Positions 1-4,646 of a stretch of DNA of 57,277 nucleotides are shown piece after piece. The stretch lies in contig CALUNH010000017.1 in NCBI GenBank assembly GCA_944321965.1, positions 1 to 57,277 of the forward strand, given 5' to 3'. The notes under the pieces are model-generated. The model made no database searches. It had not been told where the DNA came from and saw only the letters and a list, made by a program, of their open reading frames with translations. The stretch's first letter is position 1. Each line of letters opens with the position of its first letter. The translations under genes and the position numbers were made by a program. The stretch is from an uncultured Alistipes sp. GTDB taxonomy: Bacteria; Bacteroidota; Bacteroidia; Bacteroidales; Rikenellaceae.

Positions 1-160
1 TAGGATGCGGTTCGGCACAGTCAAACCTGAAAACGCTGTTTTCGTTTGCCTCTGCACTCACCTTTCACTATATTTGCAGAACATAGGATGCGGTTCGGCA
101 CAGTCAAACCTGAAAACGCTGTTTTCGTTTGCCTCTGCACTCACCTTTCACTATATTTGC
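1..160 (+). repeat. Tandem duplication of a 77-bp promoter cassette (83-bp period)
   Basis: Bases 1-77 are repeated exactly at 84-160, separated by the six bases AGAACA. Each copy contains the palindrome GAAAAC-GCT-GTTTTC (29-43 and 112-126), a TTTG -33 element (45-48 and 128-131) and TATATTTG as -7 element (69-76 and 152-159) with a 20-bp spacer. The first copy begins at the window edge, so the array may extend further upstream. Confidence 0.9.
128..159 (+). promoter_or_regulatory. Bacteroidetes-type promoter for the yqaA-like gene
   Basis: TTTG at 128-131, a 20-bp spacer and TATATTTG at 152-159 match the Bacteroidetes housekeeping sigma consensus. This is the proximal of two identical copies (the other at 45-76). 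The dyad GAAAAC-GCT-GTTTTC at 112-126 ends one base before the -33 element, a position suited to a regulator. Transcription would start near 166, giving a leader of about 105 nt. Confidence 0.75.
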
Positions 161-2067: not shown

Positions 2068-2511
2068 TCAGTCGTCGATGTCGACCAGGCGGAAATTCCG
2101 GTCGAACTCCAGGTCGAGACCGTTGTCCAACTCCACGTCATAACCCCGACGGTCCTGCTCGATACAGACGACCTTCCGCCCGGCAAAACGGCTCGCCACA
2201 CAATCCCGGATCGGTTTCGGAACGATCGCTGCCGGGACTTCGCCATATTTACAGTCGACCTCCTTCCAGTCGCCGTTCTTCAGGAACTCGACCTTCGAAC
2301 CGTTGACGAAGACCACCTTATATTCCTTGTCGAACCAATCCTCGTCGACCTTTGCATAGGAGACCTCGACGCCCTTGAAATGGGTCGTGATGAATTGCTG
2401 CGCGGCAGCCGGAAGCTCCCCGACGGTGATGATGCGATCGTTGCCCGCCGAGGCCGGAAAAATCGAAAGCGCGGCAAAAAGCGAGGCCATAAGAATCGTA
2501 AGTCGTTTCAT
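2068..2511 (-). CDS. Secreted PepSY-like domain protein
   Basis: 147-residue exported protein with a typical signal peptide (MKRLTILMASLFAALSIFPASAG, cleavage after ASA). The mature part holds two similar alpha/beta units: one built around ELPAAAQQFITTHFKGVEVSYAKVD followed by YKVVFVNGSKVEFLKNGDWKEVDC, and one built around VPKPIRDCVASRFAGRKVVCIEQD followed by YDVELDNGLDLEFDRNFRLVDID. This is the layout of the Bacteroidetes PepSY-like family (PF11396), usually annotated as putative beta-lactamase-inhibitor-like. Start chosen at the ATG directly before the signal peptide; the frame remains open upstream into the kinase region but without signal features. It lies 91 bp past the kinase stop and has its own putative operator and promoter. 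A periplasmic modulator of the kinase is plausible but not shown. Confidence 0.85.
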   Translation of the reverse strand: MKRLTILMASLFAALSIFPASAGNDRIITVGELPAAAQQFITTHFKGVEVSYAKVDEDWFDKEYKVVFVNGSKVEFLKNGDWKEVDCKYGEVPAAIVPKPIRDCVASRFAGRKVVCIEQDRRGYDVELDNGLDLEFDRNFRLVDIDD

Positions 2512-2549: not shown

Positions 2550-2584
2550 CAAAGGTGCGGCCCGAAACTGAAACGAATCTGAAA
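2550..2584 (-). promoter_or_regulatory. Direct-repeat operator and -7 element of the PepSY-like gene
   Basis: On the minus strand two contiguous 11-bp half-sites, TTTCAGATTCG (2574-2584) and TTTCAGTTTCG (2563-2573), differ at one base. After 5 bp comes CACCTTTG (2550-2557), a -7 element lacking only the first T. The 11-bp phasing is that of OmpR/PhoB-family regulators, and the repeat occupies the place of the -33 element, as expected for an activator. Confidence 0.65.
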
Positions 2585-2602
2585 AAAGGGCGGAAACGGG
2601 AA

Positions 2603-3883
2603 TTATTCCGGAAAATCCACCGTGAAAACATGGCGGCCGTCACGGAAGGCATAGGCGATCCGCAGTCCGTAGAGGCGGCACACGGCATCCGCGATGGCAA
2701 GTCCCAGCCCCGTGGAACCGGGTTTCTTCGTCCCCTGGTAGAAGCGGTCGAAAATATGCCCGGCATCCAAAGGCCCCTCCGAGGCGTCGTTGTCGATCTC
2801 GAAACGCCGCGCCGAAATCCGGATACGGACCTCGCCCCCTCCGGCCCCGTGTACGAAGGCGTTCTTCACGAGATTGCCGACCAGACTCCCCGCCAGCGAG
2901 GGGTTCATGCGGGCCGTCAGCGGCGCTTCGTCCGTCAGGTCGAGCCGGATGTCGCGGTAGGCGTAGATTTCCGCCAGGTCCTCGGCCGTGCGGCGGATCA
3001 GGGCGTTCAGGTCCACCGCCTCGGTCTCGGGGAACTGCCCGTTGTCGATCTTCGACAGCAGCAGCAGCGAACGGTTCAGCCGCACGAGGTGGTCCAGCGT
3101 GCGCTGCACCTTGGCGATCTCGCCCAACTGCTCCTCGGTCAGTCCGCGGGGATCGTCCACCAGCATCTCCAGCCGGTTGCGGCAGACCGCCAGCGGCGTC
3201 TGCATCTCATGCGAGGCGTTGCCGATGAACTGCTTCTGCCGCTCGAACGACGATTCGGCACGTGCGGCGTACCGTTCGGCCGCCTCGTTGAGCCGCCGGA
3301 ACTCCGTCACCGAGGTCTCGACCGCCAGCGGCGGATTCTGACCGCCCACCGTATAGCTGTCCAGCCACCGCAGCAGCGCATACAGCGGCCGCATCGTGCG
3401 GTGGAGCACCACGACCGTCACCAGCAGCACCAGCAGCAGCAAAAAGAGATAAAGAAAGATGATACCGTAGAAAATCGCCTCCCGGAGATCCTCCTTCTCG
3501 ATGCTCGGCGACATCACCGTCAGCTCGTACCACTGCCCTTCGGCATCCCGGAAGGTCTTGCGAAGCACCCGGGCCGGTTCGCGGTCGTCGCGCTCGGGGA
3601 TGAAGATCTCCTCGTCGGTATAGCGCTCCCGGGGGCGCGGGTCCGCCGCATCCGTCGGCAGGCGGTGCAGGAAATAACCGCTGTTGCCGTCGGATTCCGA
3701 ACCGGGAAGCTGACGCCCCGCCAGCACCCGTTTGACGATCACCTCGGCACGCGCTTCGAGCGCATCGTCCGTCTCGTCGTTGATCTCGTCGATCATCGCA
3801 AAATAGAACAGCGCCGCCCACCCCGCCAGCAGCAGCGAAAGCACCCACGAAAGGTGCAGCAGAATGCGGTAAACGAGTTTCAC
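2603..3883 (-). CDS. Sensor histidine kinase
   Basis: 426-residue membrane histidine kinase. A transmembrane helix at about residues 8-30, an extracytoplasmic loop of about 105 residues (31-137) and a second helix (138-160) are followed by a HAMP-like linker. The phosphoacceptor is H225 in ASHEMQTPLA, and the HATPase domain shows the N-box NLVKNAFVH (337-345), a G1-like IDNDA, an F-box FDRFYQG and the G2 box STGLGLAI (390-397). The G1 box has Asp-Asn-Asp where Asp-x-Gly is usual. Its ATG overlaps the response-regulator stop by 4 bp (ATGA), so translation is coupled. The signal is unknown; the PepSY-like protein encoded next may act on the periplasmic loop. Confidence 0.95.
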   Translation of the reverse strand: MKLVYRILLHLSWVLSLLLAGWAALFYFAMIDEINDETDDALEARAEVIVKRVLAGRQLPGSESDGNSGYFLHRLPTDAADPRPRERYTDEEIFIPERDDREPARVLRKTFRDAEGQWYELTVMSPSIEKEDLREAIFYGIIFLYLFLLLLVLLVTVVVLHRTMRPLYALLRWLDSYTVGGQNPPLAVETSVTEFRRLNEAAERYAARAESSFERQKQFIGNASHEMQTPLAVCRNRLEMLVDDPRGLTEEQLGEIAKVQRTLDHLVRLNRSLLLLSKIDNGQFPETEAVDLNALIRRTAEDLAEIYAYRDIRLDLTDEAPLTARMNPSLAGSLVGNLVKNAFVHGAGGGEVRIRISARRFEIDNDASEGPLDAGHIFDRFYQGTKKPGSTGLGLAIADAVCRLYGLRIAYAFRDGRHVFTVDFPE

Positions 3884-4557
3884 GGCCGGACGAGTTTATA
3901 TCCGAATCCGTAGACGGCGCGGATCTCGATGTCGGCGCCCGCATCGTGGAGCTTGCGCCGCAGGTTCTTCATCTGCGCGTAGACGAAATCGAAATTGTCC
4001 ACCTGGTCGATATGGTCGCCCCAGACCCCTTCGGCCAGCGCCGCCTTGTCGACCGTATGGTTCGGGCGCGTCATGAAGTAGTGCAGAATGTCATACTCCT
4101 TGCGCAGCAGTTCCAACGGGCGTCCCGCCACCTCCACCCTCCGGCTGTCGGGCCACAGACGCACGTTCCCTGCGTCGAGACTTTCGTAACCGTCGCGCTG
4201 GTGGCGGCGCAGCACGCTCCGGATCCGCGCGCTCAGCTCCGCCAGGTGGAACGGCTTCGGAAGGTAGTCGTCGGCCCCCAGCTCCAGCCCCTCGATCTTG
4301 TCGTCCAGCGAATCGCGCGCCGAAATGATGATTACACCGGCCCGGTTGCGGCGGCGCTTCAGCTCTTCGAGCAGCCGCAGGCCACTGCCGTCGGGCAGCA
4401 TGATGTCCAGCAGGATGCAGTCGTAGTCATAGGCCGCCAGTTTGTCCGACGCCGAGGCGTAATCCGCGGCCTGCTCCACGACGTACTGCTCCCGCATGAG
4501 CGTCTGAACCATGATCTCCCGCAGGGAGGGTTCGTCTTCGACAATCAATATTTTCAT
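3880..4557 (-). CDS. OmpR-family response regulator
   Basis: 225-residue two-domain response regulator. The receiver carries the acidic pair E7/D8 in IVEDEP, the phosphoacceptor D51 in LLDIMLPDGSG, the switch serine in IIISARDS and K101 in LPKPFHLAEL. The C-terminal winged-helix domain (about 128-225) ends with the usual IRAVYGFGYKLVRP. It is the first gene of the regulator-kinase operon. Upstream lies a tandem 11-bp direct repeat on the minus strand that also occurs before the PepSY-like gene, indicating autoregulation and a small regulon. Architecture resembles RprY/PhoP-type regulators of Bacteroides, but the specific orthologue cannot be assigned. Confidence 0.96.
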   Translation of the reverse strand: MKILIVEDEPSLREIMVQTLMREQYVVEQAADYASASDKLAAYDYDCILLDIMLPDGSGLRLLEELKRRRNRAGVIIISARDSLDDKIEGLELGADDYLPKPFHLAELSARIRSVLRRHQRDGYESLDAGNVRLWPDSRRVEVAGRPLELLRKEYDILHYFMTRPNHTVDKAALAEGVWGDHIDQVDNFDFVYAQMKNLRRKLHDAGADIEIRAVYGFGYKLVRP

Positions 4558-4611
4558 AACAATCCCATTTTTTCAGGAAGCACGGGTCCGCTGCTCGGGC
4601 CGCTTCCGCCC

Positions 4612-4646
4612 CGAAGGTAACCTCCGAATCCGAAAGGAAACTGAAA
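4612..4646 (-). promoter_or_regulatory. Direct-repeat operator and -7 element of the two-component operon
   Basis: On the minus strand two contiguous 11-bp half-sites, TTTCAGTTTCC (4636-4646) and TTTCGGATTCG (4625-4635), are followed after 5 bp by TACCTTCG (4612-4619), one mismatch from TAnnTTTG. Half-site sequence and spacing are the same as in front of the PepSY-like gene at 2550-2584. The mRNA leader would be about 50 nt. Confidence 0.65.

Follow-up and report, generated by a model that had tools for sequence, protein, structure and literature searches.

The stretch of DNA considered in this study, hereafter the window, is a contig of 57,277 nucleotides from an uncultured Alistipes sp. of the family Rikenellaceae (assembly GCA_944321965.1, contig CALUNH010000017.1), and it carries on its minus strand a two-component system followed by the gene of a small secreted PepSY_like protein. 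Two tandem direct repeats, one upstream of the regulator gene and one upstream of the PepSY_like gene, were analyzed as candidate operators of the regulator. The OmpR/PhoB-type response regulator (3880..4557, minus strand) matched Response_reg and Trans_reg_C, and the sensor histidine kinase (2603..3883, minus strand) matched HisKA and HATPase_c as well as the NCBIfam model NF052314 (444.5 bits, cut-off 350). The two genes are adjacent and overlap (3883 versus 3880), and the receiver with a winged-helix Trans_reg_C domain, paired with a HisKA and HATPase_c kinase, makes up the OmpR/PhoB-type architecture. The kinase has hydrophobic stretches at residues 13-31 and 141-159 with about 109 residues between them, and a phospho-acceptor His225 with ExxT. 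Within four genes of this pair lies the PepSY_like gene (2068..2511, minus strand), whose product of 147 amino acids has a signal-like N-terminal stretch, as judged by eye, and a single reported Pfam match, PF11396 (93 bits, gathering score 28.3), a family distinct from Pfam PepSY. Relatives of this protein have solved structures (3due, 3db7, 3elg, 4poi, 4dsd and 4qoa), and it was the only PF11396 gene found in its own genome (2.6 Mb, 85 percent complete).

The regulator operator (4625..4646, minus strand) is composed of the contiguous 11-bp half-sites TTTCAGTTTCC (4646-4636) and TTTCGGATTCG (4635-4625), followed after 5 bp (GAGGT) by the -7 element TACCTTCG (4612..4619, minus strand). The PepSY_like operator (2563..2584, minus strand) starts 19 bp past the kinase stop codon and is composed of TTTCAGATTCG (2584-2574) and TTTCAGTTTCG (2573-2563), followed after 5 bp (GGCCG) by the -7 element CACCTTTG (2550..2557, minus strand). 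An original prediction, made from the letters of the window, had placed two 22-bp direct repeats at exactly these positions, and they proved to be the sole matches: with up to three mismatches the 22-mer pattern was found only at the two operators in 57,277 bases on both strands, compared with a chance expectation of 0.01 in 100 dinucleotide shuffles, or 0.00 with the -7 element included. The 5-bp gap to the -7 element, also claimed there, held at both sites, but the regulator element TACCTTCG deviates from TAnnTTTG, the -7 consensus of Bacteroidota. In the genome of origin, a 21-mer pattern gave two exact sites and one site with two mismatches, and its reversed control gave none. A weight matrix derived from 47 training sites, with the window and its four closest genomes left out, scored the window operators at 49.6 and 28.3 bits, whereas the next best position in the window reached 6.0 bits and the best among 20 shuffled windows 5.8 bits. 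A chance origin of the repeats is ruled out by the shuffles and these scores.

A total of 200 genomes of the family, drafts of 54-100 percent completeness, were searched with the kinase, and 83 full-length relatives were obtained from 82 of them, clearly set apart from other kinases by an E-value gap (1e-98 to 1e-51). The regulator gene precedes the kinase gene at all 83 loci, and a PepSY_like gene occurs within the fetched flanks of 73. For each locus, sites were scored with a weight matrix built without the sites of that locus, at a threshold of 15 bits. Such a site was found before 71 of the 73 PepSY_like genes and 55 of the 83 regulator genes, and before both at 50 loci. Absence of the repeat before orthologous operons had been named in the original prediction as the observation that would count against it, and these frequencies show the motif to be largely kept. 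It is also present at five loci where the PepSY_like genes are divergent, on the opposite strand. Only six other hits above 8 bits, the highest at 38.0 and 27.5, occurred in the 973,508 bases of these loci on both strands, and no control reached 15 bits (0/83 kinase-internal windows, 0/4150 shuffled upstream regions).

The occurrence of the operator was then compared with that of the genes, using the operator-plus-promoter pattern with up to three mismatches and the reversed pattern as control. The pattern was present in 84 of the 200 family genomes (reversed control 0/200), comprising 80 of the 82 kinase-bearing genomes, all except G061 and G145, versus four of the 118 kinase-less genomes, namely G006, G051, G066 and G186, the last with its site just 5' of a PepSY_like gene (Fisher p ~4e-48, uncorrected for relatedness). 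PepSY_like genes occur in 179 of the 200 genomes, one of the 21 negative genomes being unlisted and assigned by elimination, and 98 of these 179 are kinase-less. Since only three of these 98 have the pattern, it is the two-component system, rather than the PepSY_like gene, that the operator tracks.

Beyond the family, the best 80 loci from a scan of named genome contigs were examined. They include Bacteroides fragilis, B. caecigallinarum, Phocaeicola sartorii, Parabacteroides, Prevotella, Barnesiella and Dysgonomonas and are mostly from other Bacteroidales; the titles of 15 name Alistipes or other Rikenellaceae, 14 of these being family contigs, and one is a metagenome bin titled Roseburia. 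Among these 80, the kinases nearest to that of the window were from an uncultured Alistipes (98 percent identity) and Candidatus Alistipes intestinigallinarum (93 percent). A PepSY_like gene was found at 68 loci, and with the family matrix the operator was found before 63 of these genes and at 40 of the 75 regulator promoters examined (15 bits), with no hit in the controls (0/78 kinase-internal windows, 0/3750 shuffled upstream regions). The only two other hits, assigned by sequence and position, lay at a PepSY_like gene near a contig end (L275) and at a regulator whose start was uncalled (L341). At the order to phylum level, 29 loci of other families were examined, taken from 96 genomes with a kinase match, and here the box has drifted to the form TTCCCAATTCT TTCCAAAATCT. 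A relaxed 22-bp matrix, with its threshold set at the 99th percentile of shuffles (7.2 bits), detected the drifted box upstream of 17/28 regulators and 11/19 PepSY_like genes, and 87 kinase windows used as controls had a 95th percentile of 1.2 bits and a maximum of 8.9. In the phylum sample of 395 genomes, the kinase family was present in 96 (82 over the cut-off) and PepSY_like in 47, with both in 36; in other words, the kinase family occurs in 36 of the 47 genomes with PepSY_like versus 60 of the 348 others.

The ferritin, GNAT and FabH genes that flank the system in the window had relatives at only two, three and four of the best 80 named loci, respectively (flanks of up to 4 kb), which argues that the conserved unit is regulator, kinase and PepSY_like, and a functional role for the flanking genes was rejected on these counts. 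One genome of the family (G002) encodes two full-length kinase copies (L040 and L052), each beside a regulator coding sequence, that of L040 being split over two frames, and beside PepSY_like genes with operators; the site at the L040 regulator promoter is weak (14.2 bits). Where regulator promoters have a site, the gap between TTTG and ATG is only 4-6 nt in 21 of 55 family loci (such as L021, L031, L037, L062 and L075) and in 5 of 40 among the best 80 named loci, and the regulator mRNA should there be nearly or fully leaderless; in the window the gap is about 54 nt. The contig end (window 1-160) has an 83-bp direct repeat, within which lies a promoter-like 33-mer ending TATATTTGC; this 33-mer has two copies in the interval and two further copies with three mismatches elsewhere in the genome.

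The original prediction had also called for a search of the own and related genomes, in which the sites did recur, and they were found in addition at unlinked PepSY_like genes and a porin, which it had not foreseen. In the own genome, the pattern matched the two window sites, a site at C1:52474-52508 before a Porin_O_P porin, and C3:48070, which is background. Unlinked sites were collected from the own genome, 15 genomes of the genus and 25 of the family (reversed-pattern control one match in the genus and none in the family). Twenty-two of these 25 have the kinase; the three without it (G052, G064 and G078) gave no match, nor did G041, which matches a slightly wider pattern. After removal of seven duplicate loci, 56 sites away from the kinase locus were counted, none closer to it than about 6.5 kb. 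The targets are 31 PepSY_like genes and 13 porins that belong to one family with the own-genome porin; one of the porins (L196) was recognized by translated search, and all fell in the genus sample. There are also one predicted secreted barrel, presumably DUF2490-like, and one target cut off by a contig end. The remaining 10 sites had no matching target; all are hits with three mismatches, and nine lie inside reading frames and look like background. Targets with weaker or different sites would escape the pattern. By its predicted targets, the operator is the mark of a small regulon containing the regulator, linked and unlinked PepSY_like genes and the porin.

If the -7 element is set by the Bacteroidota consensus, the half-sites span approximately -38 to -17. 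An 11-bp tandem phase is characteristic of OmpR-family dimers, and the arrangement is like the Pho box of PhoB, in which dimers of this family sit head to tail on a pair of 11-bp direct repeats that replaces the -35 element; the box sequence and the target genes differ, save for a porin of the Porin_O_P family. The prediction that a TTTG -33 element is missing stood in that none of 207 sites has TTTG 18-22 bp 5' of the -7 element, but this is partly built in, as the operator bases themselves fill the position and leave little room. An operator in place of the upstream promoter element is the usual activator geometry, and half-sites at the -33 position, 5 bp from the -7 element, favour activation.

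We therefore read the repeats, with a probability of roughly 0.7 for the explanation as a whole, as tandem operators of the OmpR-type regulator, which would activate its own operon together with PepSY_like and porin genes and would be held in check by PepSY_like feedback. Two regulator molecules would bind head to tail on the contiguous half-sites around -33, and the bound regulator, 5 bp before the -7 element, would recruit RNA polymerase. Once phosphorylated, it would turn on its own operon and the adjacent PepSY_like gene, as well as unlinked PepSY_like genes in relatives and, in the genus including the own genome, the Porin_O_P-type porin. The exported PepSY_like protein would most likely bind the periplasmic domain of the kinase, shifting its kinase/phosphatase balance, so that positive autoregulation would be damped and the loop closed. 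The parts of this scheme differ in strength: the operators are very probably bound by the neighbouring regulator, which probably acts there as an activator, and the chances that PepSY_like feeds back on the kinase, judged largely by analogy, are about even.

The trio of genes is already known, and the following comparison extends as far as the accessible text of the cited papers. In Porphyromonas gingivalis, the HaeSR pair (PG0719/PG0720) is encoded near a protein of PF11396 (DUF2874), as is the pair in the window, whose gene order is kept in relatives; the PG0717-PG0720 neighbourhood and its conservation in several Bacteroidales have been published, and an auxiliary role for PG0717 in regulating the kinase was put forward in 2013 (PMC3772042). 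HaeS has a periplasmic region of 104 residues, a phospho-His226 and ExxT (PMC5706477), compared with about 109 residues, His225 and ExxT here, a close likeness in described anatomy. HaeS is reported to bind haemin (PMC5706477), and this binding is ascribed to periplasmic tyrosines including Tyr88; residue 88 of the window kinase is a tyrosine in a column that is mostly tyrosine in the relatives shown, and its equivalence to Tyr88 is putative. PG0717 is described as a lipoprotein with four DUF2874 domains, whereas the window protein has one Pfam stretch. HaeR binds its own promoter and has sites before 57 genes, many for haemin uptake (PMC3764172), it acts as both activator and repressor (PMC3764172, PMC5706477), and PG0720 gave a footprint at the asSuGR promoter (PMC8757827). 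Haemin uptake, gingipains and an antisense RNA account for most of the reported HaeR targets, in contrast to the PepSY_like genes, regulator and porin found here. The accessible text on HaeSR contains no operator sequence. A published haeR primer had no match in the genome collection searched.

DbfQRS of Vibrio cholerae is the mechanistic precedent. Here a small secreted PepSY protein, DbfQ, is likewise encoded beside a kinase/regulator pair, DbfRS; it binds the sensor domain of the kinase and favours phosphatase activity, and positive autoregulation of dbfQRS has been suggested by the authors (PMC12714742). DbfQ, however, carries the Pfam domain PepSY and its gene lies upstream of the pair within one operon, whereas the PF11396 protein of the window is encoded downstream under its own copy of the operator, and relatives have further PepSY_like copies that are unlinked. 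The word 'bacteroid' is absent from the text of that paper (PMC12714742). In its proposed working, the module described here resembles both HaeSR and DbfQRS.

The PepSY_like proteins could instead be effectors, a system that senses haem, metal or envelope damage calling up periplasmic binding or inhibitor proteins and a porin. We consider this a serious alternative, somewhat short of even odds. PF11396 was defined with BVU2987, which has a beta-lactamase-inhibitor-like fold and a proposed inhibitory function (PMC2954215), and HaeS is reported to bind haemin (PMC5706477). The operator is moreover common to several unlinked paralogues and to lipoprotein-like members, and a set of operator-bearing paralogues fits effectors better than a single feedback ligand. 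Against this stand the precedent of DbfQ, the tight linkage to one kinase and the co-occurrence with it in the phylum sample (36/47 versus 60/348).

It is unlikely, by comparison, that the regulator binds the operators and represses, or that its sign depends on the promoter. HaeR has been described in both roles (PMC3764172), and since the sites abut the promoter, a bound protein could block polymerase; both window operators, however, occupy the -33 position 5 bp before the -7 element, and this layout, which recurs in relatives, speaks for activation.

The regulator that reads the sites was assessed by covariation, after fourteen named loci repeating family contigs had been removed. At the 79 loci that have both, the regulator and PepSY_like operators of one locus agree beyond shuffled pairs at five of the six positions tested; operator position 14 is most associated with regulator residue 194 and position 17 with residue 190, both of which we place in the recognition helix of the OmpR fold. 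That some other regulator, or an alternative sigma factor, reads the operator, with the proximity of the two-component system secondary, would account for the pattern in 4 of 118 kinase-less genomes, and is nevertheless very doubtful in view of its presence in 80 of 82 kinase-bearing ones, the 11-bp phase of OmpR-family dimers and the covariation of operator bases with these residues. At five loci (L050, L054, L060, L066 and L068) the half-site word reads TTAC or CTAC instead of TTTC; several of these carry the change in front of both genes, regulator and PepSY_like. The regulators of such loci have different residues near the recognition helix as well.

The genome also contains, on contig C11 (G000:C11:11757-12341), an open frame of 520 residues for a PglZ-domain protein, which we take to be PorX-like. 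Its PorX-like length and the NF052314 score given above would suit a kinase that is PorY, as the NCBIfam name has it, acting on the type IX secretion regulator PorX; we regard this as highly improbable and reject it, since the kinase gene overlaps that of an OmpR-type (Trans_reg_C) regulator without a PglZ domain, nearly all genomes of the family sample have PglZ proteins (190/200, versus 82 with the kinase), which are hence independent of the kinase, and PorX/PorY is reported not to be autoregulated (PMC8050853), unlike the autoregulation suggested by the operator at the regulator promoter. Because this and many similar OmpR-paired kinases exceed the NF052314 cut-off, automatic annotation may label them PorY. 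PhoB was likewise rejected as the identity of the regulator, which scored 147.9 bits with the Bacteroidota PhoB model (cut-off 270).

Several observations weigh against activation of the regulator and PepSY_like genes through these operators with feedback on the kinase. No 15-bit site was found at 28 of the 83 family regulators and 35 of the 75 examined among the best 80 named loci, which indicates that autoregulation is less conserved than PepSY_like control, and the PepSY_like genes of kinase-less genomes must be under some other control. Much of the family-level evidence comes from incomplete drafts (54-100 percent), the half-site phase (11 bp) and the spacer (5 bp) are built into the matrix, so that their constancy in relatives is assumed, and at least one of the 87 kinase control windows also exceeded the drifted-box threshold. 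The covariation is uncorrected for shared ancestry, one of the six positions lacks it, and one of the two residue associations involves only 12 loci with the rarer base. In P. gingivalis the neighbouring kinase gene PG0719 was up, not down, in a PG0720 mutant (PMC8757827), and the haemin regulon of HaeR is broader and different, which may reflect divergence, weaker sites missed by the pattern, or a system that is not HaeSR.

Proteins of PF11396 have been described mainly from gut and oral microbes and several of their structures are solved, and in the literature searched, as far as its accessible text goes, no molecular function is established for them, deletion of PG0717 being pleiotropic. 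No description of the operator or of a PepSY_like regulon was found in the literature searched, which consisted mostly of papers outside subscription. Tentatively, PF11396 proteins may largely serve a single HaeS-like kinase with its regulator as a dedicated output, conserved in Bacteroidales and drifted across the wider phylum, that is, secreted and possibly competing ligands under one operator that report to one sensor, joined in some genera by a porin. If this is true, Bacteroidota would have their own, independent form of the DbfQRS principle, in which a kinase has several ligands, and the missing HaeR box would be this operator. By tying PF11396 proteins to one two-component system, the operator predicts which genes move together and gives a sequence to seek in existing HaeR ChIP-seq peaks, and the tuning of a sensor kinase by these proteins becomes testable in genetically workable gut Bacteroides.

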